Assembly (NCBI GenBank): GCA_024709105.1
Contig: JANJXJ010000033.1
Location: 1 to 52,844, forward strand
From: Lentimicrobium sp.
GTDB lineage: Bacteria; Bacteroidota; Bacteroidia; Bacteroidales; Lentimicrobiaceae
Direction: 5' to 3'
DNA: 52,844 nucleotides
Positions 17,277 through 41,545 of this stretch are shown in pieces (position 1 is the first letter of the stretch; each line of letters opens with the position of its first letter). The notes below the pieces were generated by a model. The model searched no databases and had not been told where the DNA came from. It worked only from the letters and a program-made list of their open reading frames with translations. A program made the position numbers and the translations under genes.

Positions 17277-17375
17277 AAGCATTCTGATAACAGGTATTTA
17301 ATTGATTTTCAGAGTATAAATCAAAGCATCCAAAAGATGCACAGGCGATAGCCTTGTCAACAAAAAAACATAAAG

Positions 17376-18887: not shown

Positions 18888-18951
18888 AGACGTGAATTTC
18901 ATTGCGAACCCTGCGATAAAATCCATATCACATGCAATTTAAGCCGAAACC

Positions 18952-19941: not shown

Positions 19942-19951
19942 AAGAAAAAAC

Positions 19952-21817: not shown

Positions 21818-21826
21818 AACAAAGAG

Positions 21827-24800
21827 GTGGTGCTGAAAACAGAATTTCCGAAAAACATTATTAGAATCATTCTGACATTTGTGCTCATTTCCGGCGCAAA
21901 TGCCAGCCTGTTTTCACAGCACAATCTTGCGTTGAACAGGGCTGTTTTACATTCCTCGGTGGCGGGATACAATCCGGCCGGGCATCTTGTAACCGACGGT
22001 CACAGCAACACACTCTGGAAAAGCAATCTTACCCGGGAAGCATCACTTATTATTGATCTGGGAGAAATCTGCAGAACAAAACAAATCGTCATTCACCGTC
22101 CGGTGGAAAATGAAATTCAGGTTCAGGTCAGTGTTTCGCAAGAGGGTACACTGCAACAGGTAAAGAACTGGAAATCCGTCATTTCAGGAACAAGCATCAG
22201 GCAAAAAAACAGCAAACTGTCTTTCAGCAGCAGCAGCCGCTTCGTTAAAATTCATTTTTCATCAGAGTCCGCAATTTATTTCGAAGTAAATGAAATTGAA
22301 ATTCAGGGAACCAAACCGGTCCACAAATCAAAGATACCAGAAAAGCCAACCGATACAGGTGTTTTGAGCGGCGAGGGCTGGAAAATCATGCGCGAGAGAT
22401 ATGCCGGAGGCAACGGGCAGCGCATTTCAGAACCCGATTTCGATGACAGCCAATGGATTCCGGCCTCTGTCCCCGGAACCGTGCTGGCCAATTATGTGGC
22501 AGCAGGAGCTGTTGCCGACCCGTTGTATGCCGATCATCAGCTGCAGATTTCAGAAAGCTGGTTTACAGCAGATTTCTGGTACCGCAAAGCATTTGTGGTA
22601 CCTGGCGCAATGGCTGGCAAACAGATATTTCTGAATTTTAAAGGCATCAACTGGAAAGCCGAAGTATTTGTTAACGGAAAACATATCGGTAACATAAACG
22701 GAGCCTTTACCAGAGCTGAATTTGATATTTCTGACATGGTTACCCCGGGAAAGTACGCTGCCGTGGCAGTTCTGATCAGAAAAAACGACAACCCCGGTGA
22801 AGTAACCGAACAACATCTCAAAGATCCTGATGGAAACGGAGGCATCATTGGCCTCGACAGCCCAACTTATGTATCAGCCATCGGCTGGAACTGGCTGCCC
22901 ACCATTCGCGGCAGAAACACCGGAATTACCGATGATGTTTACCTCTCAGCAGTCAGCGCCATACAGCTGAGCAACCCTCAGATTACTACCCAACTGAACC
23001 TGCCCGATACAAATCTGGCTGAATTTGGCATCTCTGTATCTCTTAAAAACCTGAGCCACTCCCCTGCTTCTGGAAAACTAAAGATACAATGCAGATATTT
23101 TCAACTGGAAATTCCTGTTGATAATCTGGAGCCAAAGGAAAGCAGGGAAATTCATCTGAGTGCGGATAAATATGAGCAACTCCGGGTTGAAAATCCAGCA
23201 TTATGGTGGCCCAACGGCTATGGAAAACAGGCGCTGGATCGGGTGAGTTTTAGTTTTATCAAAGATTCACAGTTATGCGACAGCCTGTCGGTGCAATATG
23301 GAGTCAGGCAATACGGGTATCATTATAAAAACGGGCATTTATTTCTGCATTGCAATGGCTATCCGGTGCTGATACGCGGCGGTAACTGGGGGCTACCCGA
23401 GGCTTTGCTCAGAAACACTCCCGAACAGTATGATTTGTGGGTAAGGCTTCACAAAGACATGAATCTGAACATGATACGCAACTGGGTTGGACAAACGGCT
23501 CATGATGCCTTTTATGAGGCCTGCGACAGACACGGAATCATGATTTTTGACGATTTCTGGCTGGCAAATCCGGTTGACGGGCCACATCCGGCCAACGAAG
23601 AAATGTTCCTTAAAAACGCCTCAGATAAAATCCTGAGGTTCAGAAATTACCCTTCAGTAGCCATCTGGGCAGGGCGCAACGAAGGTTATCCTCCGGCAAC
23701 CCTCGACTCAGCACTGCGCGAAATGACCGGCCGCCTTGACCCGGAAAAGCACTATATTTCAAACACTTGCCAATATCCTGTTACCGGACTCGGGCCCTAC
23801 GAAATAAAAAGCCCGGAATGGTATTTTAGCAGCAGAGGCAGGAGTTTCCATACTGAACAAGGCATTGTTGCCGTGCCTGTTGCCGAGAGCATGAGGGCCA
23901 TGATGCCTGCAGAAAACCTTTGGCCGGCAAACGATATGTGGGGCAAACACGACTGGACACAGCCCCGTGTGGATATTTACACCCGGGACCTGGAACGCAG
24001 TTATGGAAAACCTGAAAATATTGATGATTTCTGCAAGAAAGCCTGGCTGATGAACACCGAAGGTCCCAAAGCCATGATGGAATCCTGGCAGTTCCACCGC
24101 GGCCCGGGAGTTCTGATCTGGATGACACACCCTGCCTGGCCTTCCATGATTTGCCAAACCTATGATTATTATCTGGAACCTACTTCGGCATATTTTGCCG
24201 TAAAAAAAGGCAGCGAACCCATCCATATTTTCCGCAATCCGGTGAACGGGAATATTTTCATCTCAAACAATACCATCAAAGAATTAAAACCGGTGAGCGC
24301 TGAAATGGTAATGGTGAATGAAAAAGGCCAGTTTATCAATAAAGACGCTGTTCGTCAAAATCTCCCTGCGCTCAGCACCGTGCAATGTTTCACACCTGTA
24401 ATTCCTGCAGACTCCGGCCAGCTTATTCTGCTGAGTCTTAAACTTAAAAACAGCGATGGCGCTGCAATTTCCGAAAACTTTTACTGCTTAAATCCTTCAG
24501 ATCCAGGAAACTATACCGCCTTAAACAGATTACCGGAAGTATTGCTGAATACAGAATACACAAAAATTACCACTGAAAGCAAAACTCACTTTGATGTAAA
24601 AATCAGCAATCCGGCTGAAACTGCTGCAGTTATGATCAGACTGAAAGCAGTAAATGCGGAGGATGGCAGCAGGGTACTTCCGGCATTCTGGAGCGACAAT
24701 TACATCAGCCTGTTGCCCGGCGAGACGCGCACCATCAGGTTTACACCTGAAAAACCAATCTCAGGAGAAATAAAGATCATGACCGAAGCTTACAACTGTC

Positions 24801-24829
24801 CGCTTCAAACCGCAATCAGGAAAAAATGA
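21827..24829 (+). CDS. GH2 enzyme (endo-beta-mannosidase/exo-glucosaminidase-like branch) with N-terminal F5/8C domain
   Basis: A 1000-residue exported GH2 protein. The only plausible starts are GTG codons at 21827 or 21830, preceded by AAAGAGG, 9 bases after the previous stop. No ATG occurs before the signal sequence. A signal peptide (IIRIILTFVLI) is followed by an F5/8C-like binding domain (about 33-160), the GH2 sandwich and Ig domains (about 170-480, ending WWPNGYGKQ), the barrel, and a C-terminal Ig_GlcNase-type domain with FWSDNYISLLPGETRT. The acid/base is Glu619 in WAGRNEG and the nucleophile is Glu677 in HTEQG. Exo-beta-glucosaminidases of this branch carry Asp instead of Glu at the acid/base, so a mannosidase-type activity is favoured. 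It overlaps the next gene by four bases. Confidence 0.85.
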   Translation: MVLKTEFPKNIIRIILTFVLISGANASLFSQHNLALNRAVLHSSVAGYNPAGHLVTDGHSNTLWKSNLTREASLIIDLGEICRTKQIVIHRPVENEIQVQVSVSQEGTLQQVKNWKSVISGTSIRQKNSKLSFSSSSRFVKIHFSSESAIYFEVNEIEIQGTKPVHKSKIPEKPTDTGVLSGEGWKIMRERYAGGNGQRISEPDFDDSQWIPASVPGTVLANYVAAGAVADPLYADHQLQISESWFTADFWYRKAFVVPGAMAGKQIFLNFKGINWKAEVFVNGKHIGNINGAFTRAEFDISDMVTPGKYAAVAVLIRKNDNPGEVTEQHLKDPDGNGGIIGLDSPTYVSAIGWNWLPTIRGRNTGITDDVYLSAVSAIQLSNPQITTQLNLPDTNLAEFGISVSLKNLSHSPASGKLKIQCRYFQLEIPVDNLEPKESREIHLSADKYEQLRVENPALWWPNGYGKQALDRVSFSFIKDSQLCDSLSVQYGVRQYGYHYKNGHLFLHCNGYPVLIRGGNWGLPEALLRNTPEQYDLWVRLHKDMNLNMIRNWVGQTAHDAFYEACDRHGIMIFDDFWLANPVDGPHPANEEMFLKNASDKILRFRNYPSVAIWAGRNEGYPPATLDSALREMTGRLDPEKHYISNTCQYPVTGLGPYEIKSPEWYFSSRGRSFHTEQGIVAVPVAESMRAMMPAENLWPANDMWGKHDWTQPRVDIYTRDLERSYGKPENIDDFCKKAWLMNTEGPKAMMESWQFHRGPGVLIWMTHPAWPSMICQTYDYYLEPTSAYFAVKKGSEPIHIFRNPVNGNIFISNNTIKELKPVSAEMVMVNEKGQFINKDAVRQNLPALSTVQCFTPVIPADSGQLILLSLKLKNSDGAAISENFYCLNPSDPGNYTALNRLPEVLLNTEYTKITTESKTHFDVKISNPAETAAVMIRLKAVNAEDGSRVLPAFWSDNYISLLPGETRTIRFTPEKPISGEIKIMTEAYNCPLQTAIRKK

Positions 24830-25506
24830 AAAAAATCAGGATAAAAATCTGCATTTTCACCGTTTTGTTGCCTTTGGCCATAATTCCATGTGCCTTTGGC
24901 CAGCTTCCTGCAGGATATGCAGGCGTTCCATACTTTGATTCAGCTTACTGCATGGGTGCTCAGAATATACCGGGTCGTATTGAGCTGGCGTATTACGATC
25001 TGGGTGGTGAGGGAATAGCCTATCACGATGCCGATGCCACCAACAACGGAAGCATACTCAACAGCACGGAGGGACATTGCAGGCCCGGGATTCCCGAAGA
25101 TATCTGCTTTTTCCGCAAAAACGAAGGTGTTGACATTTCTTACACCAAAGACTGGGCAGATTTTAACCATCCCAACAAAACCGATCCCAAAGTCAATCAG
25201 CTTTACATTGGCTGGCAGGAAGATGGCGAATGGACAAATTACACTGTAAATATTCTGGTGAAAGGACGTTACAAAATTGTTACCATTTATGGCAATCGCG
25301 ACAACGGGGCTTCGCTCTGGCTGAACGACCAAAAGCTCACCGACCTGAAATTACCTGAAGATACCGGCAACTGGCATTACTGGACTCAAGCCACCGTTGC
25401 TGAAACCACCATTACAAACACCGGAATTAACCTGCTTACCCTGAAATACAACAGCGGAGCAAACCTGGCCTATCTCGACTTCATTCTGATAGAAGCCATT
25501 GAATAA
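24826..25506 (+). CDS. Stand-alone secreted CBM6/CBM35-like carbohydrate-binding protein
   Basis: A 226-residue exported protein with no catalytic domain. A signal peptide (KICIFTVLLPLAIIP, cut near AFGQ) is followed by one beta-sandwich module. Its hallmarks are PGRIELAYYDLGGEGIAYHD, RKNEGVDIS, GWQEDGEWTNYTVN, a YKIVTIYGNRDNGASLWLN strand and a final YLDFILIEAIE strand, all as in CBM6/CBM35 modules usually attached to hydrolases. Its ATG overlaps the stop of the upstream GH2 gene (ATGA), so the two are translationally coupled and likely made in fixed ratio. It may act as a soluble binding partner of that enzyme or as a periplasmic glycan carrier. The ligand cannot be read from the sequence. 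Confidence 0.8.
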   Translation: MKKIRIKICIFTVLLPLAIIPCAFGQLPAGYAGVPYFDSAYCMGAQNIPGRIELAYYDLGGEGIAYHDADATNNGSILNSTEGHCRPGIPEDICFFRKNEGVDISYTKDWADFNHPNKTDPKVNQLYIGWQEDGEWTNYTVNILVKGRYKIVTIYGNRDNGASLWLNDQKLTDLKLPEDTGNWHYWTQATVAETTITNTGINLLTLKYNSGANLAYLDFILIEAIE

Positions 25507-25527
25507 ACTACTTAAAAACTCATCCAT

Positions 25528-28491
25528 ATGAAGATCAAAAGACTTTCGTTACTGCTGTTCATTGCGTTTGTTTTCAGCAATGTACAGGCTCAGTTTACAA
25601 CCATTACGCCTGCCGCTAAATCGGTAGTTCAAAACAACATGCCCGTAATGAGCTGGACACCGGCAGTTTGCGACCATTACGAGATAACTGTAAATCAAAA
25701 GATTAAGGAGATCGTTCCTGCGGATATTAATTATTACGTCCCTTTTGCCCTTCCTTTCGGAACCTGCCATTGGGAAGTAAAAGCCATTCAAAACGGCAAA
25801 GCCATTGCTGAGGCTTCTTCATCATTTACCATGGATGATCAGCCGCTGAATCCAATGCCCGAACAATCAGTGTTACTCCGGCACAACTGGAAAGTTCAGT
25901 CGGCATGGATCGAAAAAAGCAACGGAAAAAAAATCAGCACCCCTGCCCATCAGGCAGATGACTGGTACAGCACTACTTTGCCTGCCACTGTGCTGACGGC
26001 TTTGGTGCGCAACGGAGTATATCCGAACCCGTACACCCACAAAAACAACATGCTGATTCCCGACATGAACGATGCTTTCAATAAAAAGTTTAACCTGCTT
26101 CAATACAGCCATATCCCCGGAAAAAATCCCTGGAAAAAAGCATGGTGGTATCGCAATGAATTTGAAGCAAAACAGGCTGAACCAGGCAAAAAAGTATGGT
26201 TGCATCTCGATGAAATCAATTACCGGGCCGAAGTCTGGCTCAATGGCACCCGACTGGGCAGTAAAGATGAACTGACAGGTATGGAAAGAAATTTCAGATT
26301 TGATGTATCCAATCTAATTCTTTCCGGTAAAAATGTACTGGCCATCGCCATTTACCCTCCCGATCATCCCGGGGAACCGGTAGCCGACCCTGTTACCCCG
26401 CTGGCCGATCCGGGTCAGAATATGGCCGATGGGATGATCAGCCGCGACTACACCAAATGGGATGTGCTGGGTTGGGATTGGCAACCTGCTGTCCGCGACC
26501 GCGACATGGGAATCACCGAAGATGTGTATCTGAGCTACAGCAATGAACTGGAAATCAACAATGTTTACATCAGCAGCCAGCTTCCTCTGCCTGACACAAG
26601 CAGTGCAACGCTCACCCTGTCCTTCGATCTGGTTAATCACTCAAATGCTGCAATTCGCGGTAGTTATGAACTCATGATTACAGGAAGCAATCAACAGGTT
26701 AAACTGAATATTCCTTACGAAATTCCTGCAGCATCTACCAAAAGTTTCCTGTTAACTCCCGAATCCAATCCCGAACTGCAGCTCAGCAATCCCGAACTGT
26801 GGTGGCCTCACGGCTATGGCTCACCCAATCTTTACACCCTGAACATTAAAGCCTTATCAGAAAAAATCGTGGCTGACGAATATGAAACCCGTTTTGGAAT
26901 CAGGGAAATCAGCACCTATATTGGCAACAACGAACGTGTTTTTAATATTAACGGGCGCGACATCTACATCAGGGCCGGCAACTGGGTAATTGACATGATG
27001 CTCAACTGGACCACAAACCGGTATCATGAAGAAATCAGGCTTTCGAAACATGCCGGACTTAATCTGCTGAGAATCTGGGGCCCAACGGGTGTTCCTCCGC
27101 GTGCATTGTATGAAGCCGCTGATGAACAAGGAGTAATGCTCTGGCAGGACTTTCTCAACGACTACTGGGGTACTTTTAAAAATACGCCCGGATATCAGCC
27201 TGATATTAAATTGTTTGAGACTGCCTCTGCTGGTATTGTCCGCAAATTGCGCAACCATCCCTCACTTATCATCTGGTGCGGAGGCAACGAAGGTGTAAAT
27301 CCAAGAGAAGAGCTTATTACCGGGAAAATACTGCCCGAAAACGACGGCAGAGATACCCGATATTACCTGAAAGCCTCAGACGGCGATGGCCTGCATGGTG
27401 GCGGACCATATCACACCCTGGAACCCGATGAATATTTCACCCATGAGAAACTGCATGGCTTCAGCAGCGAAATCGGGGCAAGCGGAATTCCGGTAGCTGA
27501 AAGCATAAAAAAGTTTATGCCCCTGGTACCCGAAACCTGGGCCGAAAACCGTTTCCCGCTCGACGGATACTGGGCTTTTCACGATGCCAACAACTGGCCG
27601 GGCGAAGATACACGCAAGTTTTCGGCATTCGATGACATCCTGCGCAACAGCTACGGGGCACCTGAATCTCATGATTATGCCGGAGCCATGGATTATCTGG
27701 ATAAGTGCCAGCTCATAAGTTATGAAGTATACCGAGCTGCCATTGAAGCCATCAACCGGCAGTTGTGGACAAATTCAAGCGGTTTTGCGCTATGGAAATC
27801 AAATTCGAGCTGGCCAAGCATGGTGTGGCAGGTGTACGATTGGTATCTTCAGGCTCATGCCGGATTTTATTCCACCCGCACATCAAATGCCGCACTAAAC
27901 CTTCAATTCAACCGCGACAAGCGGAGCATTTCCCTTGTTAGCACCGGAAACCACGGACATAGTAAATTGAAAATAAGTGCTGAAACTTTTGGAACCGACT
28001 TAAAAAATACCTGGAAGCAGGAAAGTGAAATCATCCCCCTTGCCGACAATGCCCAATCAACAGGCTGGACCGTTCCCCCGGCTGAAGAATTGCAATTCCT
28101 GAGACTAAGAATATTCACTGACAGCAGCGAATTGGTTCAGGACAAAATTTACTGGTTGTCGCCCGACCGCAATTTTACCGCCCTCAACTCACTTCCGGAA
28201 CCGGAACTTGAGGTAAGAGCAACAGGGCTAAGAGGAAACGAAAGAAAAAAATGGGAGGTAAACATCACCAATACAGGCGAAACCATTGCATTTATGACGG
28301 CACTGAGCCTGAGAGGAGAAAACTCCGGAACAGAAATACTCCCTTCACTCTGGAGCGACAATTACATCACTCTGCTGCCCGGCGAAACGCGTACATTAAC
28401 GGTAGAGGCTCCGGCTCACGATGTTCATGAAAATGTGGTCATCGGATACCGGACATACAAAGGCAGGATGAAGCATGCAAGAGTGCTTTAG
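25528..28491 (+). CDS. GH2 enzyme (endo-beta-mannosidase-like branch) with N-terminal Fn3-like domain
   Basis: A 987-residue exported GH2 protein, distantly paralogous to the gene at 21827. A signal peptide ends at VQAQ (residue 22). Residues about 23-105 resemble a fibronectin-III-like module (VMSWTPAVCDHYEI). The GH2 sandwich (about 115-330) and Ig domain (to WWPHGYGSPN) precede the barrel, with acid/base Glu588 in WCGGNEG and nucleophile Glu648 in GFSSEIGASG. The C-terminus has LWSDNYITLLPGETRT, nearly the same as in its paralogue. It shows Glu rather than Asp at the acid/base, which argues for mannosidase-type rather than glucosaminidase activity. No T9SS tail is present, so the likely site is periplasmic. 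Specificity within mannan is unknown. Confidence 0.85.
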   Translation: MKIKRLSLLLFIAFVFSNVQAQFTTITPAAKSVVQNNMPVMSWTPAVCDHYEITVNQKIKEIVPADINYYVPFALPFGTCHWEVKAIQNGKAIAEASSSFTMDDQPLNPMPEQSVLLRHNWKVQSAWIEKSNGKKISTPAHQADDWYSTTLPATVLTALVRNGVYPNPYTHKNNMLIPDMNDAFNKKFNLLQYSHIPGKNPWKKAWWYRNEFEAKQAEPGKKVWLHLDEINYRAEVWLNGTRLGSKDELTGMERNFRFDVSNLILSGKNVLAIAIYPPDHPGEPVADPVTPLADPGQNMADGMISRDYTKWDVLGWDWQPAVRDRDMGITEDVYLSYSNELEINNVYISSQLPLPDTSSATLTLSFDLVNHSNAAIRGSYELMITGSNQQVKLNIPYEIPAASTKSFLLTPESNPELQLSNPELWWPHGYGSPNLYTLNIKALSEKIVADEYETRFGIREISTYIGNNERVFNINGRDIYIRAGNWVIDMMLNWTTNRYHEEIRLSKHAGLNLLRIWGPTGVPPRALYEAADEQGVMLWQDFLNDYWGTFKNTPGYQPDIKLFETASAGIVRKLRNHPSLIIWCGGNEGVNPREELITGKILPENDGRDTRYYLKASDGDGLHGGGPYHTLEPDEYFTHEKLHGFSSEIGASGIPVAESIKKFMPLVPETWAENRFPLDGYWAFHDANNWPGEDTRKFSAFDDILRNSYGAPESHDYAGAMDYLDKCQLISYEVYRAAIEAINRQLWTNSSGFALWKSNSSWPSMVWQVYDWYLQAHAGFYSTRTSNAALNLQFNRDKRSISLVSTGNHGHSKLKISAETFGTDLKNTWKQESEIIPLADNAQSTGWTVPPAEELQFLRLRIFTDSSELVQDKIYWLSPDRNFTALNSLPEPELEVRATGLRGNERKKWEVNITNTGETIAFMTALSLRGENSGTEILPSLWSDNYITLLPGETRTLTVEAPAHDVHENVVIGYRTYKGRMKHARVL

Positions 28492-28557
28492 AGATACTGC
28501 CGGAATCAATGAGAGGCAAAATTTGCCGGAATACAGGCGTTAACTAAAAGTAAGAGC

Positions 28558-30579
28558 ATGAAAACCAAAAGATTAATCGCATTATTAGTTTTTATCACAG
28601 GCTTGTTTCCGGCGTTCGCTCAGCCTGTCTGCACCCCCTGGGGCAATATCAAAGGCCTGCATGTGGAAGGCGAAAAAATGGATTTTGAAACTTCACTCAG
28701 GTCCGTAAATACCGGCTGGAAAAGTTATGTAAAAAGTGAAAAATACCATTGGGAAGGCACACAAACCTACACCATAGATGACAAAAGTCATTTTGTTTCG
28801 CACTATTTGCTCGGCACCCCCATTGAATATCAATGCCGTATGACTGAAACAGGTGAGGGAAAGGTAAAGTCGGAGTTGGTTATAAAAGCCACCGGAAATC
28901 ATGATCAGGCCGGAACTTACTTTTGCTTTGAAGTTCCCGGATCTGATTTTACTGATGGCACCATTGAATTTTACCTTAAAAATAAGAAAGCCGGTGAATT
29001 ACAGCTGTCTTCTGCAATAAAAGGAATTGACGGAACTTTTGCAGCCCTGAAAGCCGACCGCGTTGTCTGGAAGTCGGCGCACCGCAATTATGTGATTGCT
29101 GCCGGAGAAGCAGTTCGGGTTTTCCTGCGCCAGGATTTTGACAGCAATCCTGCATACCGCAACGATCCATGGCCACAGCAGAGTTTCGCTGAAAATGATC
29201 CTCTGTTGAAAAAGGCGAACTTTCAGCTCTACTTTACACTCATTGAGGGCAAAACGAAAAAGGGAACAGAAAAAAGGTTTTCATTTAACATAGAAGCCTC
29301 CGGCACCATTGACCGCGAACCTGTTACACTGGTAATCAACCCTGCCAATCCCGGAAGAAAATGGGACGGAATCAGCGGAAATTATCGCTTTCAGTTCCCT
29401 GAAAAAGATCCGATGGTGATTGATTATTGCCTCGACAGCCTTCGGGTGACCCTGAGCCGCATATCCATGTGGTGGGAAATGTGGCATGCTGAAGAGCATT
29501 CCAATCCGGCAGAACTTGCCAGAGCCGGACAACTGCCGCCTCGTTTTTACGAACAGATGGAACTGGCAAAGAAGCTTCAGCAGCGCAATATCCCTGTAAT
29601 TGTTTCAGTTTGGTCGGCTCCGGGATGGGCAATTGACAAAAATAATATCCCGCGCAAAGGTGTTCATCTCGACCAGAGTAAAATGGAAGCCATCTGTGAA
29701 TCCATTTCCGGCTTTTTGCTGTATCTGAAGCAGGATTACGGCGTAGAGGCTACCCTGTTTTCATTTAACGAAACCGATTGTGGTGTGGAGGTATTTCAAA
29801 CGCCTGAAGAACATGCCATATTCAACAAAGCCATTGGCAAACATTTAAAAGAAAAAGGACTAAGCACCAAAATGCTGCTGGGTGATACCGGCCATGGTAC
29901 TGCAGTGGCCAATCAGATTGTCTGGCCCAGCATCAACGACCCTTCCATCCATAACTATCTGGGAGCCATAGCATTTCACACTTATCACGGTTGCACCAAT
30001 ACTGACCTGCAGGCCTGGGCAAAATCGGCAGAAGCCATTAATCTGCCAATTATGGTTACTGAAGGCGGCACCAACTCAGCAGCACACCGCTACCCGCTTG
30101 TTTTTCTGCAGCCCTGGTTTCAGCTTGAAGAAATTGATACATACATACGCATTTGTAATTTATGCCAGCCATCTACTATTATGGAATGGCAGCTTACCTC
30201 TGATTATTCGGTGCTCACCGGTAAGGGATTATACGGCGACAACGGACCACTGCGTCCCACCCAAAGATTCTGGAATCTGAAACAATTGGGCAACACCCCC
30301 GCTGGATCTTTCTGGCTGCCTGTGAGTTGCGACCGGCCCGGAATCAGCTGTGCTGCCGCTGCTCATATTGCACAAAACCGCTGGTCAATACATCTGGTAA
30401 ACAACGGAGCTGCCCGAACCATTACCATCGAAGGCATTCCCGATACTGCGAAAACTTTTGATGTGTATCTCACCGATGCCCTGCATGGAATGCAGAGAAT
30501 GGAAACCGTGAGTGTAAAAGATGGCAAATTGCAGTTTGTTGCCGGAAAACAGGCGTATTATTCACTTTTCAGCAGATAA
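28558..30579 (+). CDS. GH30-like clan GH-A enzyme, paralogue 1, unknown specificity
   Basis: A 673-residue exported protein. A signal peptide ends at AFAQ (residue 22). Residues about 23-255 form an N-terminal domain that I do not recognise, opening with TPWGNIKGLHVEGEKMDFET. From about 257 a barrel begins with KWDGISGNYRFQFPEKDP and LSRISMWW, as in GH30-like enzymes. Candidate acid/base Glu405 is in SFNETDCG and candidate nucleophile Glu502 is in IMVTEGG. A C-terminal beta domain (about 575-673, with IHLVNNGAARTITIEG) resembles the GH30 side domain. It lies 3 bases before its paralogue, so the two are co-translated. Function within mannan use is unknown. It could attack a side chain or a co-occurring polymer. 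Confidence 0.7.
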   Translation: MKTKRLIALLVFITGLFPAFAQPVCTPWGNIKGLHVEGEKMDFETSLRSVNTGWKSYVKSEKYHWEGTQTYTIDDKSHFVSHYLLGTPIEYQCRMTETGEGKVKSELVIKATGNHDQAGTYFCFEVPGSDFTDGTIEFYLKNKKAGELQLSSAIKGIDGTFAALKADRVVWKSAHRNYVIAAGEAVRVFLRQDFDSNPAYRNDPWPQQSFAENDPLLKKANFQLYFTLIEGKTKKGTEKRFSFNIEASGTIDREPVTLVINPANPGRKWDGISGNYRFQFPEKDPMVIDYCLDSLRVTLSRISMWWEMWHAEEHSNPAELARAGQLPPRFYEQMELAKKLQQRNIPVIVSVWSAPGWAIDKNNIPRKGVHLDQSKMEAICESISGFLLYLKQDYGVEATLFSFNETDCGVEVFQTPEEHAIFNKAIGKHLKEKGLSTKMLLGDTGHGTAVANQIVWPSINDPSIHNYLGAIAFHTYHGCTNTDLQAWAKSAEAINLPIMVTEGGTNSAAHRYPLVFLQPWFQLEEIDTYIRICNLCQPSTIMEWQLTSDYSVLTGKGLYGDNGPLRPTQRFWNLKQLGNTPAGSFWLPVSCDRPGISCAAAAHIAQNRWSIHLVNNGAARTITIEGIPDTAKTFDVYLTDALHGMQRMETVSVKDGKLQFVAGKQAYYSLFSR

Positions 30580-30582
30580 AAA

Positions 30583-32553
30583 ATGAGAACTAAAGGTCTT
30601 ACGCTGTTGCTACTGGTTTTGATAACCTTTTCAGGAATCAGTCATGTAAATGCGCAGGTTAATTTTGCGCCCTGGGGAAACATCAGAGGTATTCTTTATG
30701 CCGATGAAGTAGTTCCGTTTGAAACTTCTATCAGGATAAAGGAAAACAGCTGGGAAAACATTCAGCAGACCCGGCACTATGGGCTCGAACCTTCCTTTAA
30801 ATCAAAAGGTAAATTATTTCTCAACGAATCAGTACTTGACGGAACCGCTTATTCGCAGAAAGTCACCGATCACGGTGATGGCAAAGCCATTGTAAACCTG
30901 CGCATTAACCCTGAATTAACCGGAAACGGCAAAGATGTATTTTTCTGCACCGAAATTGCTGTGGAACATTACAGCGGAGGCAGCATTTTATTCGAAGGCA
31001 AAGGAATAAAGAATAAAACTCTGAATATCAGCGATGTTTTTACCGATGGGCTCATCTGGCAGGATCAGAACCCGGTAAAAAAAGTAACGATTCAGGGAAA
31101 GAGCCGAAAGATAGAAATCGCTTCGGAGCTGCCACTCAGGGTTTTTGTGGTTAAAGGTGCATCCCGTACCGGAGATGCTTTACTTCCGGTTTATTACCAC
31201 GTTTATTTTCAATTACGCGATAGCTCACACAATCAGGCTGTTGAACATAATTTCAACATCAGTGCGTTCTGTATTCCTGACAAGAATCCTGTTTATCTGA
31301 AAATTGACCCGGGTCAACCGGGCCGGCGTTTCGACGGCATCGGAGGCAATTTCCGGCTACAGTTCCCCGAAACTGATCCGCAGGTAATCCAATGGTGCCT
31401 CGACAGCCTGAATGTAACCTGGAGCCGGATTGGCATGTGGTGGAGCGACTGGCATCCCGAAGAAGCCATTGATCCGGTTGCGCAGGCAAGGGCCGGCAAG
31501 CTTATTCCTAAAGTTTATGAACAGATGGAAATGGCTGCCGAACTTTCAAAACGGGGACTTCCTGTTATTGTTAGTGCCTGGTTTGCACCAAAATGGGCAT
31601 CACTCGAAGGCATAGCCCGCCCGGGAACATACGGCGAACAACTCAACCCCGCCAAATGGGAAGCCATTGTTGAGTCCATCACCAAATACCTGCTCTTTTT
31701 AAAGACAGATTACGGTGTGGAAGCCGTAATGTTCTCTTTCAACGAACCGGAAATCGGTGTGCGTGTGGTGCAGTCGCCATACGAACACATCACTTTTATA
31801 AAAATGCTCGGCAGCAGTTTTGCACGCCACGGCCTCTGCACCAAACTGCTGCTTGGCGACACCTCCAACGGCACTCCCTTTGCCCTGAGCTTTGTTGATG
31901 CTGGTGTTGCTGATCAGTCAGCACATCAATACATCGGCGCCCTCGGCTTTCACACCTGGGGTGGTATGGAAAACGAAAACCTTCTTCGCTGGAAAGCAGC
32001 TGCCATGCAACTGCAGGTGCCTCTGCTCGTTACCGAAAGTGGCCCCGATTCCGAAGCCCACCGCAATCCCGATCTCTTCCTTGACCGGTTTTACCAGCAA
32101 CAGGAAATTGACCTTTACATCAGACTGTGCGCTGTATGCCAGCCACAAAGCATTATGCAATGGCAACTTACGGCCGATTATTCTGTTTTATCGGGCGGAG
32201 GGGTTTACGGAAACCACTGGCCGCTGCAAACAACCCAGCGCTACTACAACCTGAAACAACTCGGGCTGACGTCTGAGGGCTCTTTTGCAATTCCTGCAAT
32301 CACCGGGGGCAAAAACATTACCGCAGCAGCTTTTGGTGATAAGGTAAATCAGCGTTATGCCGTTCATATTGTAAACAATGGCGCCGGAAGAACCATTACT
32401 GTAGATGGCATACCTGAAGGAATCAACAGCATGTCGGTATTTACAAGTAGTTTTACCAAAAAAATGGAAAAAGACAAATCCCTGAAAGTTAACAACGGTA
32501 AAGTTGTCTTTGAGGCTCCGGCAGGCAGTTACATCACTATAATCAACCTTTGA
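30583..32553 (+). CDS. GH30-like clan GH-A enzyme, paralogue 2, unknown specificity
   Basis: A 656-residue exported protein, the tandem paralogue of the preceding gene with the same domain order. A signal peptide ends near VNAQ (residue 25). The unrecognised N-domain opens with FAPWGNIRGILYADEVVPFE. The barrel begins with RFDGIGGNFRLQFPETDP and WSRIGMWW. Candidate acid/base is Glu388 in SFNEPEIG and candidate nucleophile Glu485 in LVTESGPDS. A C-terminal beta domain has VHIVNNGAGRTITVDG. Differences from paralogue 1 around the active site (NEPEIG against NETDCG, ESG against EGG) suggest the two have split in specificity rather than being redundant copies. GH30-like placement is from motif style only. 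Confidence 0.7.
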   Translation: MRTKGLTLLLLVLITFSGISHVNAQVNFAPWGNIRGILYADEVVPFETSIRIKENSWENIQQTRHYGLEPSFKSKGKLFLNESVLDGTAYSQKVTDHGDGKAIVNLRINPELTGNGKDVFFCTEIAVEHYSGGSILFEGKGIKNKTLNISDVFTDGLIWQDQNPVKKVTIQGKSRKIEIASELPLRVFVVKGASRTGDALLPVYYHVYFQLRDSSHNQAVEHNFNISAFCIPDKNPVYLKIDPGQPGRRFDGIGGNFRLQFPETDPQVIQWCLDSLNVTWSRIGMWWSDWHPEEAIDPVAQARAGKLIPKVYEQMEMAAELSKRGLPVIVSAWFAPKWASLEGIARPGTYGEQLNPAKWEAIVESITKYLLFLKTDYGVEAVMFSFNEPEIGVRVVQSPYEHITFIKMLGSSFARHGLCTKLLLGDTSNGTPFALSFVDAGVADQSAHQYIGALGFHTWGGMENENLLRWKAAAMQLQVPLLVTESGPDSEAHRNPDLFLDRFYQQQEIDLYIRLCAVCQPQSIMQWQLTADYSVLSGGGVYGNHWPLQTTQRYYNLKQLGLTSEGSFAIPAITGGKNITAAAFGDKVNQRYAVHIVNNGAGRTITVDGIPEGINSMSVFTSSFTKKMEKDKSLKVNNGKVVFEAPAGSYITIINL

Positions 32554-32564
32554 TCGCAAAAACA

Positions 32565-34283
32565 ATGAAAACAAAACATCTGATTCTGGTTTTCACGCTT
32601 TTTATGCTTGTTTTAAGCAGTTCGTGCAGCAAAATAAAAACCGGCACTACTCCCGGTGACACCATCCTGCTTTACAACAAAGCCGAATGGCTACTCGCTG
32701 TTAATGATGAATATACCAATCCCTACGACCCGGCCGATGTTGCGCTCGACATGGTTTTACTGAGTCCCTCAGGCCGTGAAATCATGCTCCCTTGCTTCTT
32801 CGATCCCCTGGCGAAAGATAAAACCCTGCCCTGGAAAGCCCGCTTTATGCCACAGGAAACCGGCAATTATACATACTCTTTCAGGCTGAGCCGGAAAGGA
32901 CAAATAACCGGGGAAAGCAGCAAAAAATCATTTACTGTGGCTGCTTCTGACGGAAAAGGCATATTGCACACCCATGATTTCTGGACACTGCGCTACGACA
33001 ATGGCGAATCTTTCCGCGGCATCGGCAAAAACATAAGCTGGGAATCGCGCGATGAGGATGATTCAAAGTACTTCAGGGAATTGCATGAAGACAAGCGCTT
33101 TAACTACGATTACATGCTCGGGAAACTTTCGGAAAACGGAGGCAACTTCTTCCGTACCTGGATGATCTACTGGAATCTGCCTGTTGACTGGAAAACCATT
33201 CACAACAACAGCCGTTACCAAAACTCAACTTCTGCCTACAACGAAAGCGGGATACAACGCATGGATGAACTGATTGAGCTCTGCGATTCGCTGGGAATTC
33301 ATGTTATGCTGGCGCTGGAAAGTCATGTTGGCTACATGGGAATGGGCTGGGATATAAGCAATTACAATGTTAAAAACGGTGGTTTTGCCAATACTCCCAC
33401 TGAGTTCTTTTCGTTGCCCGAATCGCGTGAGCAATACAAAAACAAACTCAGATATATGGTGGCCCGCTATGGATACAGCCCGGCCATTGGTGCCTGGGAG
33501 TTTTTTAATGAGGTGGACAATGCCATGTACAATGTTGGCCCCGATGATCAGATACCGGCCGATATAGTTGCCGACTGGCATGGCGAAATGAGTTCTTATC
33601 TGAAGAAAATTGACCCTTTCGGCCATATTGTAACCACCAGTGTTTCGCACCGCGATATACCGGGCATGAACGACCTGCCAAATATCGACCTGAATCAGAG
33701 ACATATATACAAAAACACAAATGCAATTCCGTCAACCCTGCGCGATTATTCGGCTAAACACAACAAGCCTTATGTAATCGGGGAATCGGGTTACGAATGG
33801 GACTGGAGCAAAAACTTCAACGACTTTGCCGATGAAATGGATGGTGATTTTAAACGCGCCCTTTGGTACGGCCTGTTCAGCCCTACGCCTGTACTGCCGA
33901 TGAGCTGGTGGTGGGAGTTCTTTGAAAACCGCGGCATGATGAGCTATTTTGCAAAAGTCAGGCAAATAAACGATATGATGCTGAAAGCCGGCGAAGGTTC
34001 GTTTACTGAAGTTGAAATCAAACCCATGCAGAATGAGGTAATTGCATTCGGTGTAAAATGTGGCGAAACCAGTTTTATTTATCTGTTCAATTCAGGCACA
34101 AAGGAAACTGAAGTACATTTCAGTGTTCCTGCTGATTTTAAATCTTCTGCATCCATGGATTGCTTCGATTGCGAAACCGGACTTTTCAGCAAAACAGAAA
34201 CCCTGGAAATGACCGGCAACAGCGTAAAAGTTTCCGGGCTTATACTTAAACCAGGAAGTGACATAATTCTGATAAGGAAATAA
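32565..34283 (+). CDS. GH5-like glycosidase lipoprotein with DUF5060-type N-domain
   Basis: A 572-residue lipoprotein. The ATG at 32565 is preferred over a TTG opening at 32550, as it begins the lipoprotein signal (MKTKHLILVF, lipobox SSSC at about residue 21). Residues about 32-125 match the DUF5060 style of beta domain (WLLAVNDEYTNPYDPADVAL). The barrel follows, with candidate acid/base Glu316 in EFFNEVD and nucleophile Glu407 in IGESGYEW. A C-terminal beta domain (about 490-572) closes the protein. The lipid anchor suggests display on the outer membrane facing either side. It follows the GH30-like pair by 11 bases in the same transcript. The substrate is unknown. DUF5060-linked GH-A enzymes act on several polysaccharides. 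Confidence 0.75.
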   Translation: MKTKHLILVFTLFMLVLSSSCSKIKTGTTPGDTILLYNKAEWLLAVNDEYTNPYDPADVALDMVLLSPSGREIMLPCFFDPLAKDKTLPWKARFMPQETGNYTYSFRLSRKGQITGESSKKSFTVAASDGKGILHTHDFWTLRYDNGESFRGIGKNISWESRDEDDSKYFRELHEDKRFNYDYMLGKLSENGGNFFRTWMIYWNLPVDWKTIHNNSRYQNSTSAYNESGIQRMDELIELCDSLGIHVMLALESHVGYMGMGWDISNYNVKNGGFANTPTEFFSLPESREQYKNKLRYMVARYGYSPAIGAWEFFNEVDNAMYNVGPDDQIPADIVADWHGEMSSYLKKIDPFGHIVTTSVSHRDIPGMNDLPNIDLNQRHIYKNTNAIPSTLRDYSAKHNKPYVIGESGYEWDWSKNFNDFADEMDGDFKRALWYGLFSPTPVLPMSWWWEFFENRGMMSYFAKVRQINDMMLKAGEGSFTEVEIKPMQNEVIAFGVKCGETSFIYLFNSGTKETEVHFSVPADFKSSASMDCFDCETGLFSKTETLEMTGNSVKVSGLILKPGSDIILIRK

Positions 34284-35099: not shown

Positions 35100-36257
35100 T
35101 TACTTTCCGGTTATCTTCTCTTGCACATTCTCCCACGCCCTGTACAAATCAGGAACATTATTCTGCATCAGCATAAGCGGGTCATTGACAAAATTGATAA
35201 AATCCCGTGAGGCTTTGTGGCCTGCATAGGGAACAAAGTAATGTTTGTCGTGAGCATTGCGCCAGAACAGCACCCACGATAAGGAGCGGGTCTTGTCTGA
35301 GTGGCTGAGTACCGGCAGCAACCTGCGCGAAAAATATCCTCTGCTGCTCAGCTTATTGCTCCCGGCTTCGGTAAAAGCCGCAATTTTGCCCTTTTCAGCA
35401 GCAATTTCAGCTGCAGTTTCAAGGCTGAAAATCAGTTTTTCTGTTTCTTTCCGGCGCAGCACGGTGTAATCGTTAACTCCGAACACGTCAACCATGTCAT
35501 CTCCTGGATATTTTTCGAGGTATTCGGCTGCGCTGTTAAAGCCAACATACGGTGAATAGGCTACGAGCAGATTATTAAGTCCGTGTTTCTGCCGCAGATG
35601 CAATATGGTGAACCGGAAAAGCTGAATATATTCATCCGTTGAACAATGTATCTGCCCCCACCAGAACCAGTTGCCGGTATGTTCGTGCCAGGGCCTTAAA
35701 ACAATGGGAATGAGTTGGCCCGATTCATCGCGCAGCGAAGCGAGAAAAGCCCCTGCCCTGTCTAAGCGCTCCATAAACTGACTGTGATGGCTGCCCCCGG
35801 GCAAGATCATACTTACTGTATTATTGGGGGTTTTGGTATCTGCCCAGGGGTCTTTACCGGTAACCGGATTAAACAGATGCCAGCTGATGGTATTCACTCC
35901 GCCGGATTTATACACCTGTAAAACGTATTTTCGTATGTCGGCTGCTTTTAAAACATACGTTACCCCGCCGGCTTCCAGGTCCAGCTCTCCTATGTCCCAC
36001 CCATAAACTGCAGGATGTGAACCACATACATCTTTTATATCCGACCTCCCAGCATCTCCTCGCCACTTTACTCCATACGCCAACGCATCCTGATGGCCAA
36101 CCATGACATAATTCTTCGCCAAAGACTTCAGGTTTCTGTATAGATTAATCGTGGCCTGACTGGCATTGACATCAGCAGGCAGGTCTCCTGTGGTGTATGC
36201 AGGCAAATGGAACAACAGCAGAAATAAAACAGAAAGTATCCTGAAAATCATGGTCAT
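35100..36257 (-). CDS. GH26 beta-mannanase, short form, paralogue A
   Basis: A 385-residue GH26 enzyme of barrel plus signal peptide only. Start 36257 (or ATG 36251) gives the signal MTMIFRILSVLFLLLFHL. A longer open frame reaching 36449 would run through the terminator at 36394-36421 and is rejected. The acid/base is Glu192 in RPWHEHTGNWFWWG and the nucleophile is Glu297 in AFTEAGS, with YPGDDMVDV between them. It lacks the binding domains and T9SS tails of the large GH26 enzymes, so it probably works in the periplasm on imported oligosaccharides. It is closely similar to the GH26 gene directly upstream, from which a terminator separates it, so it is a tandem duplicate with its own or read-through expression. 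Confidence 0.9.
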   Translation of the reverse strand: MTMIFRILSVLFLLLFHLPAYTTGDLPADVNASQATINLYRNLKSLAKNYVMVGHQDALAYGVKWRGDAGRSDIKDVCGSHPAVYGWDIGELDLEAGGVTYVLKAADIRKYVLQVYKSGGVNTISWHLFNPVTGKDPWADTKTPNNTVSMILPGGSHHSQFMERLDRAGAFLASLRDESGQLIPIVLRPWHEHTGNWFWWGQIHCSTDEYIQLFRFTILHLRQKHGLNNLLVAYSPYVGFNSAAEYLEKYPGDDMVDVFGVNDYTVLRRKETEKLIFSLETAAEIAAEKGKIAAFTEAGSNKLSSRGYFSRRLLPVLSHSDKTRSLSWVLFWRNAHDKHYFVPYAGHKASRDFINFVNDPLMLMQNNVPDLYRAWENVQEKITGK

Positions 36258-36393
36258 GGCAGTCAAATTTTGGGATAAAAATAATTGTTTCTGCCAAATC
36301 ATTGACAGCACCGGGTCATTCTGTCCACAAAAGAGACTTCCGAAACTTTGTTTTGCATTTTCAGAATGGGAAACAATACCTGGAAAGGCAAAA

Positions 36394-36421
36394 AAACTTC
36401 CCTGCCTGAGCAGGGAAGTTT
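36394..36421 (-). terminator. Strong rho-independent terminator between the two short GH26 genes
   Basis: AAACTTCCCTGC (36394-36405) and GCAGGGAAGTTT (36410-36421) form a perfect 12-base stem with a 4-base loop. On the minus strand it is followed by a T-run (the plus strand shows AAAAAA at 36391-36396). It lies about 40 bases after the stop of the GH26 gene at 36462 and would end the GH130-GPH-epimerase-GH26 transcript. Confidence 0.85.
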
Positions 36422-36461
36422 CACACACTATAAACCAACCAACCTCCAACCAAAGAGGATC

Positions 36462-37652
36462 TTAATCGGGCGAGGTTCCCGAAATTTCGTTACTGATGTC
36501 AGGATAAACCCTGTATAAATCAGGCAGATCATTCTGCATTAATATCATCGGGTGAGCAACAAATCTACGGAAATCAGCAGCAGATTTATGGCCGCGATAG
36601 GGCATAAAATGGTGTTTTTTGTTACCGTTTCTCCAGAAAAGCACCCATGAAATGTAGCGGGTAAGCTCAGAATGTTGCAGCACCGGAAGTAATTTTTCAG
36701 TGAAATATTTTTTATCTTCCATATTGGTGCATCCGGTTTCGGTAAAAGCGGCTATCTTTCCTTTTTCTTTTGCAACAGCTGCAATAATTTCAAGATTTCT
36801 GATCAGATTCCCGGGCTTGTTTTGCCTGAGTGAGTGATAATCATCCACCCCGATTACATCCACCATATCATCACCGGGATATCTTTCGAGGTATTCGGCG
36901 GCGTTGGTGTAGCCGATGTCCGGCGAAAAGGCAATAAGAAGATTATTCAGGGCGTGTTTTTCCCTGAGGTACTGAATGGTAAAACGATATAGTTCAATGT
37001 ACTGCTCTCTGGTGCAATGTAAACGTCCCCACCAGAACCAGCTGCCTGAGTGTTCGTGCCAGGGCCTGAAAACCACCGGAATCAGTTCTCCGTTTTTGCT
37101 CCTGAGCGATGCCAGAAAGGCTCCTGTACGGTCGAGATTTTTAAGAAAATCGGCATGACGGGCACCTCCTGGAAGAATCTGGCCAACCACATCAACTGCA
37201 ATCTGTGTATCAACCCACGAATCCTTGCCGTTCAAGGGGTTATAGGCATGCCAGCTGATGGTGTTGAGTCCCCCGGCTTCAAACACGCTGATCATGTTCT
37301 TTCGCATCTGATCAAAGGGCACACTGTCGAGATTTTTTGCCAAACCAATGTCAATACCACCGATATCCCAGCCAAATACTGCGGGATGTGAGCCGGTAAC
37401 ATCGTGCAGATCGGAGCGGTTTTCATCGCCCACCCACTTCACACCATAGGAAAGTGCATCCTGATGCCCCACCATGATGTAATCGGGAGCCAGTGCCTTC
37501 AGGTTATTGAAAAGGATAACAGTCCTTTCTCCTGCATTTTGATCGGCAGGTTTGTTTTTGCCGGCCAGAACTCCTGTTGGCCAAAGTGTTGTTCCGGCCA
37601 AACAGAGGACCAGAAACACTGATTTTGTTATTTTATGAGCAATGCTGAGCAT
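36462..37652 (-). CDS. GH26 beta-mannanase/mannobiohydrolase-like, short form, paralogue B
   Basis: A 396-residue exported GH26 enzyme. A signal peptide (SVFLVLCLAG, cut near VLAG) leads into the barrel with acid/base Glu200 in RPWHEHSGSWFWWG, YPGDDMVDV and nucleophile Glu305 in AFTETG. There is no T9SS tail, lipobox or binding module. Its start lies one base after the epimerase stop, so it is tightly coupled with epimerase, symporter and phosphorylase. The same set in Bacteroides fragilis includes a GH26 that releases mannobiose, the substrate of the epimerase. By that synteny a mannobiose-forming periplasmic role is likely, though exo action cannot be read from the sequence alone. Confidence 0.9.
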   Translation of the reverse strand: MLSIAHKITKSVFLVLCLAGTTLWPTGVLAGKNKPADQNAGERTVILFNNLKALAPDYIMVGHQDALSYGVKWVGDENRSDLHDVTGSHPAVFGWDIGGIDIGLAKNLDSVPFDQMRKNMISVFEAGGLNTISWHAYNPLNGKDSWVDTQIAVDVVGQILPGGARHADFLKNLDRTGAFLASLRSKNGELIPVVFRPWHEHSGSWFWWGRLHCTREQYIELYRFTIQYLREKHALNNLLIAFSPDIGYTNAAEYLERYPGDDMVDVIGVDDYHSLRQNKPGNLIRNLEIIAAVAKEKGKIAAFTETGCTNMEDKKYFTEKLLPVLQHSELTRYISWVLFWRNGNKKHHFMPYRGHKSAADFRRFVAHPMILMQNDLPDLYRVYPDISNEISGTSPD

Positions 37653-37653
37653 G

Positions 37654-38898
37654 TTAGTTTTTGTAGTTTACAGCCTGAAACGGCATTTTTGAAACCAGCG
37701 AGGGTACCCGCCTGATAATTTCCAGACACATTCTGGCATTGTGGTAAGGGCATTTCCATTCACCTGCCAGATCCTGCGACAGATCGGGGGTATACTTGTT
37801 GTCAATGAGCCACCACCATTCCCCTGAGGGATGCCTGAAATGGGTTTTTATAAATTCCCAGCTATTAATTGCGGCATCCAGATAAGTGGATTCCCGGCTG
37901 AGCTCCCAGGCATCAATAAATCCTATCACAGCCTCAGCCTGAGGCCACCAGTGGCGGTCGTGGTCGGTAACTTTTCCGTGAAGCCCTTCGTTGAGCAACG
38001 AACCGTCCTGTGCTGTACCTTCGGCAAGGGTAACTCTTGCCATATAAAGTGCTTTTAGTCCAGAGGCATTCAGCAACATCTGATTGTCGAGCACCATGGC
38101 TGCCCTGCGAATGAGCCAGGCTCCTTCAATATCGTGGCCATAGGAATAATGCTCCGATGCCGGTTTCCAGTCCATCTCAAAGAAAAGGTTAAAATGTCCG
38201 GTGCGCTGGTTTAGAATCTTCTCCAGATGTATAATTACCAGGTTCTGCAGCTGAGCCTTCAGTTCCTTGTCTTTCCAAACGGTATACAGATTTGTATAGG
38301 CCTCCAGCACATGCAGGTGGGTATTCATACTTTTGGGCAGGTTGGCATCTTTGGTGCTCAGCCTTAAATCTTCTAGCGCTGTCCATTCCTGCGAAAGGGC
38401 CTCAGTATAGCCATTGTGGGCCGGATCAAAAGCATGTTTTTCGATAAGATTATACAAATCAATGGCAGCAATAATGGCTTCGGTGTCTTCGCTGGCCTTA
38501 TAGTATTCCGAAAGGGCATAAATGGCAAAAGCCTGGGCATAAATCTGTTTTCTGCCGTTCAGTACGTTTCCTTCGGCATCCACCGACCAGAAGACGCCTC
38601 CATTTTTGCGGTCAATGAAATTTGATGTAAATGAATGGAATGCCCGGTGCGCTTCGGCCAGATATTCGTCGCGGCCACAGGCATTCCATGCTGCCGAAAA
38701 GGTCCAGAGTATGCGGGCATTCAGCACTGCTCCTCTGGCAGAATCGTTCACCACAGATCCGTCATAAAGAATCTGCCCGTGATATCCGCCGCGTTCCCTG
38801 TCGGCTACCTGATTCATCCAGAACGGGAGTATGTTGTCGTGCAACTCCGATTCAAGTTCGGTATATAAATGCAACAATTGCTTGCTGTTGGAGTCCAT
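37654..38898 (-). CDS. Cellobiose/mannobiose 2-epimerase (AGE family)
   Basis: A 414-residue cytoplasmic enzyme of the N-acylglucosamine 2-epimerase superfamily that converts beta-1,4-mannobiose to 4-O-beta-mannosyl-glucose. The ATG at 38898 is chosen over 38949 because the latter overlaps the symporter gene by 41 bases and adds a non-conserved tail. Histidines in the family pattern are present: His196 (NTHLHVLEAY), His255 (YGHDIEGAW) and His385 (CPYHNARMC), matching the catalytic set known from the Rhodothermus marinus enzyme (200/259/390). DRHWWPQAEA is also diagnostic. There is no signal peptide. It sits between the symporter that would import mannobiose and the GH26 that would make it, and two genes from the phosphorylase that uses its product. 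Confidence 0.93.
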   Translation of the reverse strand: MDSNSKQLLHLYTELESELHDNILPFWMNQVADRERGGYHGQILYDGSVVNDSARGAVLNARILWTFSAAWNACGRDEYLAEAHRAFHSFTSNFIDRKNGGVFWSVDAEGNVLNGRKQIYAQAFAIYALSEYYKASEDTEAIIAAIDLYNLIEKHAFDPAHNGYTEALSQEWTALEDLRLSTKDANLPKSMNTHLHVLEAYTNLYTVWKDKELKAQLQNLVIIHLEKILNQRTGHFNLFFEMDWKPASEHYSYGHDIEGAWLIRRAAMVLDNQMLLNASGLKALYMARVTLAEGTAQDGSLLNEGLHGKVTDHDRHWWPQAEAVIGFIDAWELSRESTYLDAAINSWEFIKTHFRHPSGEWWWLIDNKYTPDLSQDLAGEWKCPYHNARMCLEIIRRVPSLVSKMPFQAVNYKN

Positions 38899-38908
38899 TG
38901 TATTGATT

Positions 38909-40315: not shown

Positions 40316-40366
40316 ATGTTACATTTTTTTTTGCCCGTCAGTAAACTGAAAAGCCTGCTCTTTTGG

Positions 40367-41545
40367 TTACCATCCAATGGATTTGTTCTGATCAATGAGG
40401 TTGCAGATTGTATTTACCGAGGCTCCTGAATTCATACCATCTGCAGGGGTATTCATGCAGTAATCCACGAGTTTTTCGATGGTGGAAGTGGCCACATGAA
40501 GTCGGGTATCTGAGGAGGCATAATATATGTATACACTTCCATCGGGGTTGGCAATCCAGCCGTTTGAGAACAGAACATTCGACACATCCCCTACCCTTTC
40601 ATTGCCTTCGGGTGCCATAAAATATCCGGCCGGACTGGCAATAAGCCTGGCCGGGTCTTCGAGCGAAGTCATATACATATATAATACGTAACGCAATCCT
40701 GCAGCACAATTTCTTACTCCGTGTGCCAGATGCAGCCAGCCATGACTTGTTTTGATGGGATGAGGGCCTTCGCCGTTTTTCAGTTCCTTAATGGTATGGT
40801 AGTACCGGTGATCAATAATTGTTTCGTGCTCAACCACAGCATTTTCCATACTGTCCACCAGCGCCCAGCCTATTCCGCCACCTTTGCCGGTATCAATAAA
40901 ACCATCCTGCGGGCGGGTGTACAGGGCATATTTTCCGTTTACAAATTCAGGATGAAGCACCACATTGCGCTGCTGACTTTTCGATTTCAGGTCGGGAAGC
41001 CTTTCCCAGGTCTCCAGGTCTTTTGTGCGGACAATCCCTGCAGCAGCAATTGCCGAACTCAGGTCGCCATCGGGAGCAGCAGGATCTTTTCGCTCGGCGC
41101 AGTAGATTCCGTAAATCCAACCGTCTTCGTGAAGTGTCAGCCGCATATCATATACATTGGTTTCGGGATTTTCGGTTTGCGGAAGCCTTACCGGATAATC
41201 GCGGAACCGGAAATTATCAAGCCCGTTGTCGCTTTCGGCGATGGCAAAAAATGATTTGCGGTCGTTTCCTTCCACCCTGGCAACCAGCACATAACGATTG
41301 TTGAAGAACATGGCTCCTGCATTAAAAACAGCATTTACCCCTATGCGCTCAAGTAAAGCGGGATTGGTGGCGTAGTTCAGATCGTACCTCCAGTTTAAAG
41401 GAATATGTGCCGGGGTAAGCACCGGATGTTCGAAACGTAAATATATTCCGTTGCTTTCAGCTACAGGCTGGTTGCTTCGCGACAGCAGGGATTCGTGACG
41501 CAATCTGAGTTCATTTAAACTTTCAGAAAACTGTTGTGGAGTCAT
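40367..41545 (-). CDS. GH130 4-O-beta-mannosyl-glucose phosphorylase
   Basis: A 392-residue cytoplasmic enzyme that phosphorolyses mannosyl-glucose to mannose 1-phosphate and glucose. The five-bladed propeller fold is suggested by repeated beta motifs. The catalytic Asp is Asp133 in VYDMRLT, near Asp131 of the Bacteroides fragilis enzyme. Phosphate- and sugar-site motifs such as [41 protein letters not shown] and [13 protein letters not shown] are present. The length equals that of the GH130_1 subfamily, and no signal peptide exists. It is the first gene of the minus-strand catabolic operon and diverges from a sigma-54-type regulator. Subfamily is inferred from length, motifs and the epimerase next door. 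Confidence 0.93.

Follow-up and report, generated by a model that had tools for sequence, protein, structure and literature searches.

Positions 1 to 52,844 of contig JANJXJ010000033.1 from Lentimicrobium sp. (assembly GCA_024709105.1), here called the window, were analysed for two adjacent genes whose products we name FAM1 and FAM2. FAM1, the first family protein, is encoded at 28558..30579 on the + strand by an open reading frame (ORF) of 673 amino acids and FAM2, the second, at 30583..32553 on the + strand by an open ORF of 656 amino acids, the gap between them being the three bases AAA. An earlier note, made from the letters of this DNA, had described two adjacent paralogues 3 bases apart, and indeed both ORFs are intact and their products are 40% identical across 667 columns (E 7e-165), with 24.8% identity in the N-terminal domain and 48.6% in the barrel and C-terminal domain. 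The PWGNI[KR]G motif that it pointed out was found right after the hydrophobic leader in both proteins, while its FDGIGGN-type barrel start holds for FAM2 but reads WDGISGN in FAM1. Neither protein has a lipobox behind this leader, according to a simple hydrophobic-stretch and motif script (which placed a likely signal peptide of FAM1, ending in AFAQ, at 28558..28623 on the + strand), and this makes a periplasmic location likely for the two probably secreted proteins. The possibility that the pair is a foreign patch was rejected, as its GC content and its GC content at third codon positions lie inside the range of the other genes of the locus (the latter at the low end).

The pair lies in a + strand gene run (15207..34283), taken as an operon from its spacing, in the order GH26 (glycoside hydrolase (GH) family 26), GH5-like, aldo-keto reductase, GH26-F5/8C, GH2, CBM6 protein, GH2, FAM1, FAM2 and GH5-DUF5060. 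Further mannan genes face it on the - strand (35100..41545), namely two GH26, an AGE epimerase, an MFS_2 transporter and a GH130, the epimerase being a cellobiose 2-epimerase-like protein (37654..38949, - strand). Pfam scans of 25 other proteins of the window gave in all four GH26, two GH5-like (one under the Pfam cut-off), three GH2, a GH130 and the AGE epimerase, along with the CBM6 protein, the aldo-keto reductase, an SGNH protein, the MFS_2 transporter, SusC/SusD and a hybrid two-component regulator, and thus bear out the placing of the pair in a mannan operon, the locus being a beta-mannan polysaccharide utilisation locus (PUL). GH26, GH130 and a 2-epimerase are co-encoded with the FAM1/FAM2 pair, although not with the family as a whole. 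No GH1, GH3, GH9, GH27 or GH36 was found among the 25 proteins scanned (a search that did not extend to the remainder of the genome), so that the locus offers no obvious enzyme for taking glucosyl residues off glucomannan fragments. The marine Muricauda beta-mannan PULs share GH26, GH5, GH130, the epimerase and SusC/SusD with the window but have GH27 and GH5_26 as well, and no FAM1/FAM2-like protein is mentioned in the available part of that report (PMC9860051).

The predicted structure of FAM1 (predicted local distance difference test score (pLDDT) 87.4, predicted template modelling score 0.88; less confident at the leader and at residues 195-218 and 406-410) has an all-beta N-terminal domain, a (beta/alpha)8 barrel (29323..30291, + strand, placed by the model, the structure search and profile comparison) and a C-terminal beta domain (30310..30576, + strand, placed by the model and sequence alignments). 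A single-sequence model of FAM2 was unusable (pLDDT 39.3) and its fold was assigned by alignment to FAM1. Searching the PDB with the FAM1 model gave 1582 matches at E<=10, the best 50 of which are 12-16% identical over 430-518 columns; going by their titles or established classification, these 50 are GH30 chains or resemble GH30, and the number of columns together with the sequence alignments suggests that the aligned part is the barrel plus the C-terminal domain. With a profile of the family, 11 sequences in the PDB matched at E<=10, each of GH30 type judging by its name, title or established classification; the GH30_10 xylobiohydrolase AcXbh30A (7n6h/7n6o) came first. Profile-profile comparison with 15 GH30-type proteins (the genome's two GH30 genes plus 13 weak matches 27-69% identical to the first, L019 being omitted from the alignment) gave 98.0% and E 2.5e-13 for the whole family profile and 98.7% and E 2e-16 for the barrel and C-terminal domain, while the same kind of comparison with the window's four GH26 and with three GH5-DUF5060 proteins showed no relation. 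Model, structure matches and profile comparisons thus bear out the GH30-like barrel and C-terminal beta domain which the earlier note had read here. A search of a viral structure library gave weak matches only, mostly glycosidase-like or unnamed.

Eight residues are invariant in all 22 aligned proteins (FAM1, FAM2 and two short relatives among them): Arg301, Trp352, Asn404, Glu405, His474, Glu502, Trp544 and Tyr550 in FAM1 numbering. Asn404-Glu405 of FAM1 (29767..29772, + strand), which follows barrel strand 4 and aligns with the NE pair of GH30, is proposed to carry the acid/base, and Glu502 (30061..30063, + strand), on strand 7 and aligned with the glutamate of the GH30 TE, is the proposed nucleophile; by alignment and codons their FAM2 counterparts are an Asn-Glu at 31741..31746 and a second Glu at 32035..32037, both on the + strand. 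The barrel fold, the Asn-Glu at strand 4 and the Glu at strand 7 expected of clan GH-A all fit the predicted FAM1 structure and the alignment. The catalytic-loop motifs given previously (NETDCG/EGG in one protein, NEPEIG/ESG in the other) are correct, but the difference between them is ordinary family variation, the letters around the catalytic glutamates varying across the family, with NESDLG the commonest form. Loss of catalysis in one copy was considered and rejected because the Asn-Glu and the second Glu are kept in 22/22 rows.

In front of the barrel stands the domain that sets these proteins apart, at residues 23-253 of FAM1 by the model (28624..29316, + strand) and at 30655..31284 on the + strand in FAM2 by alignment. 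The earlier note had called it unrecognised, and this holds for the sequence searches made against Pfam, PDB sequences and 296 genomes: its profile found nothing better than E 1.4 among PDB sequences, Pfam gave scattered single-member matches only (the best, CreA, in 1 of 20 members at E 0.0081), and across the 296 genomes there were 6 matches in 5 genomes, all in the family's own proteins. A GH97_N-like origin was tried, and comparison with one GH97 protein gave nothing. Within the domain, FAM1 carries an insert (NDPWPQQ, residues 195-218, 29140..29211, + strand, a low-confidence loop in the model); in a 20-row alignment this NDPWP insert is found in FAM1 and three near relatives and is absent or shorter in FAM2 and 15 others.

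How far this places FAM1 and FAM2 outside GH30 has to be weighed, since it is possible, at less than even odds, that they are an ordinary distant branch of that family, which CAZy would number as one more subfamily and which has gained an accessory domain ahead of the barrel. GH30 (PF02055) shares with them the (beta/alpha)8 barrel, the C-terminal beta domain and the aligned NE and second Glu, and PF02055 matched 8 of 20 members weakly at E<=1 (best E 1.1e-4; this tally gives no bit scores, and 8 of the 20 were not scored singly). However, the family adds an N-terminal domain of about 230 residues, FAM1 and FAM2 themselves have no Pfam match at E<=1, and none of 12 members scanned singly, these two included, reaches the PF02055 cut-off of 23 bits (three of the 10 further members match, the best at 18.0 bits), whereas true GH30 genes of the same genome score 252 and 152 bits in a search from which FAM1 and FAM2 were absent. 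The 12-16% identity to solved GH30 structures (among the best 50 of 1582) also lies under the order of identity seen between GH30 subfamilies, which PMC8453022 puts at about 24-28%, with a mean of 24.5% between GH30-7 and GH30-8, though by a different identity measure. Another close known type is the BT3312-type endo-beta-1,6-glucanase (NCBIfam NF053856; 5ngk/5ngl), which shares a profile match (E 2.5e-6) and a structure match at rank 44, but in NCBIfam FAM1 gives noise only (11.4 bits at E 0.089, where the cut-off is 700) and FAM2 no match. The expectation that the pair lies outside existing GH families is therefore borne out against the Pfam and NCBIfam models, the CAZy library not having been compared. 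The family is thus GH30-like in its working parts, stands outside the GH30 models and has its own added N-terminal beta domain, making it a candidate GH family and not a new kind of system. No description of it was found in searches of openly licensed PMC papers, at the level of titles and abstract openings, or in the portions of PMC9860051, PMC8453022, PMC10492685 and PMC12704710 that were available.

Beta-1,4 disaccharides, mannobiose among them, are the substrates of cellobiose 2-epimerase, whose product goes to GH130. Two loci tie the family to an enzyme of this type. In one (L112:9151-12186, - strand) a single open frame of 1011 amino acids joins an epimerase domain to a family protein, residues 16-415 being 39% identical to the window epimerase and residues 427-1009 33% identical to FAM1; the epimerase half matches PF07221 (E 3.7e-43) and PDB cellobiose 2-epimerase (E 9.5e-98) and carries a signal-like leader, with no residual signal peptide at the join, and a GH9 gene directly follows. 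In the other (L061) the family gene is preceded, at a distance of 24 bases, by an epimerase gene whose product has a signal-like leader. The window epimerase is likewise a relative of cellobiose 2-epimerase (PDB 3wkf, 9l8i), but here, in contrast to L112, it is a separate gene. Fusion and adjacency point to work on beta-1,4 disaccharides or oligosaccharides, not on a side group.

We therefore favour, at a probability slightly better than even (about 0.55), the reading that FAM1 and FAM2 are secreted retaining clan GH-A beta-glycosidases that act side by side with the epimerase on (gluco)mannan oligosaccharides. The two proteins, which with about 20 relatives form one family, would probably sit in the periplasm, and their activity and retaining mechanism are predictions. 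Their substrate would be beta-1,4-linked oligosaccharides of glucomannan or mannan, imported once GH26 has acted, the best-supported guess in the case of FAM1, and cleavage may proceed from the chain end, releasing what would be glucose or a disaccharide, as one step of a pathway shared with the cellobiose/mannobiose 2-epimerase and GH130. GH30 is listed among the beta-glucosidase families, enzymes which release glucose from cellulose and glucomannan, in PMC10492685.

The neighbourhoods of other members bear on this reading. Neighbourhoods were compared at 23 loci (the window; L009, L010 and L033; 15 others; L111 and L112; and two Hymenobacter plasmids), a set which counts the two-frame gene of L111 and leaves out G761 (L041, L042), where gene pieces lie at contig ends. 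With search proteins taken from the window itself, a GH26, GH130 or epimerase was found within about 10 kb at 10 of the 23, the window included: besides it L009, L010, L033, L038 (GH26), L061 (epimerase), L111 (two GH26), L112 (the fused epimerase) and both plasmids. The plasmids score only on wider stretches, neither doing so with 9 kb flanks; their epimerase lies about 9 kb and their GH130 (67-68% identical to the window's) about 10 kb from the relative, and one of them alone has a GH26, in two pieces about 13.5 kb off. None of 20 control windows held a GH26, GH130 or epimerase, a weak control in that these were arbitrary DNA from the family's own genomes and other sugar-degradation loci were not controlled for.

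Several observations weigh against this reading. At the remaining 13 loci the stretches read, several of which end early at contig ends, contain neither GH26 nor GH130 nor an epimerase, and the neighbours elsewhere include GH20 (L059, L060), GH97 (L067), a carboxylesterase (L037) and acid-sugar genes (L063), meaning that mannan does not account for the family in its entirety. One fusion was found, in 1 of the 12 genomes of its family and in no other locus examined, and no signal peptide is visible in the epimerase of the window while FAM1 and FAM2 have one, which would put them in different compartments in this host. What assigns a substrate to FAM2 is the position of its gene and nothing else, exo action is a guess, and glucose and mannose at subsite -1 are indistinguishable on present evidence.

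The earlier note took the opposite course, holding that no mannan step needs the pair and that it may act on a side group or a linked polymer. Such action, for example on the beta-galactosyl groups of galactoglucomannan or on beta-1,6 linkages, gains from the beta-1,6-glucanase among the nearest solved relatives, from the GH27 and GalA in the Hymenobacter loci (which also hold GH2 and SusC/SusD) and from the many relatives outside mannan loci. It nevertheless seems unlikely to us, as the fusion and adjacency involve a cellobiose 2-epimerase-like protein, a class of enzyme for beta-1,4 disaccharides, and the premise itself is not supported, there being no obvious glucosyl-removing enzyme among the 25 other window proteins scanned. 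That FAM1 and FAM2 descend from a glycosidase but now bind glycans without catalysis, with the N-terminal domain serving as the binding module in a family of no known activity, is very improbable given that the eight residues, including Glu405 and Glu502, are invariant in 22/22 rows.

Beyond the favoured reading, a bolder suggestion, which we offer tentatively and at rather long odds, is that a new clan GH-A family with its own N-terminal domain supplies the hydrolysis that goes with cellobiose/mannobiose 2-epimerase. In a beta-1,4 disaccharide which the family enzyme makes or cleaves, the epimerase would flip the sugar at the reducing end; in some hosts a single secreted protein would combine both enzymes, and the route would stand beside that of a cytoplasmic epimerase with GH130 phosphorolysis as an alternative. 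Among plant wall polymers beta-mannans are a major group, and the annotation of loci for their degradation relies on known enzyme families, so that a family present in the mannan gene sets of two classes, and annotated as 'hypothetical protein' in the Hymenobacter plasmids, would fill a blind spot; as a clue to the substrate, the natural epimerase fusion is unusually direct and open to testing.

FAM1 has its nearest relatives in L009 (same genus, 69% identity), L010 (68%) and L033 (another class of the phylum, 47%), and all three loci share with the window its GH26, paired GH2 and CBM6 genes. This recurrence of the gene set, together with the spread of members over the phylum, speaks against a chance arrangement. 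In the stretches read, L010 has GH26 and the epimerase and L033 GH26 only, while GH26, GH130 and the 2-epimerase are all present in G011 (L039, L040). The plasmid proteins are relatives of FAM2 at 38% identity. Members are spread over several families and classes of the phylum: full-length ones occur in 2/19 genomes of the window's genus and 6/395 of a phylum sample (own genome included in both), where 9 other genomes gave weak matches (E 2e-6 to 6e-4) of a kind also given by GH30-type proteins. A class sample had members in 4/395 genomes (own included, one in pieces), the window's order in 5/218 (own included, with two short relatives, one broken in two frames and one fusion), the class of G179 in 4/245 and the family of G273 in 10/151, one of these (G884) with short relatives only.

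A recent tandem duplication was rejected as the origin of the pair, a constraint joining FAM1 with FAM2 costing 72 log units (approximately unbiased test, p-AU 1.3e-5). FAM2 falls at the base of the FAM1 group, on a long branch, with support of 99/99 and 100/99 in two trees, below both that group and the L033 copy. Placing FAM2 inside the Bacteroidales FAM1 group was also rejected (p-AU 9.4e-4), a test of less weight because the group was chosen after the first tree and the FAM2 branch is long. The pair thus seems to join two old separate lineages, and FAM1 and FAM2 probably differ in substrate.

Shorter relatives of 436-459 amino acids, which have no N-terminal domain, were seen at L066:8110-9468, L066:9511-10836, L113:2485-3864 and L114:9277-10587. 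The two in L066 (no Pfam match at E<=0.01) form a tandem pair, and their SusC/SusD locus also has genes for MR_MLE, DHDPS, a symporter and a SASA esterase, and that in L114 is near GH26 and GH5-CBM6 genes. The family gene at L111:9207-11151 lies in two reading frames and is broken or misassembled, with two GH26 genes nearby. In the window itself, a 560-amino acid protein with no Pfam match at E<=0.001 follows SusD (13318-15000, + strand), a PD-(D/E)XK transposase-family gene lies just past the mannan locus (43722-44657, - strand) and a Serpin-family protease inhibitor gene (48510-49937, - strand) adjoins the gene for a large SprB/CHU_C protein. Near the family gene of L063 (13120-17433, - strand) are Fe-ADH, DHDPS, PdxA and SBD_N/NBD_C kinase-like genes, which look like acid-sugar catabolism, and genes of similar size, plus a symporter, stand beside the family gene in L062.

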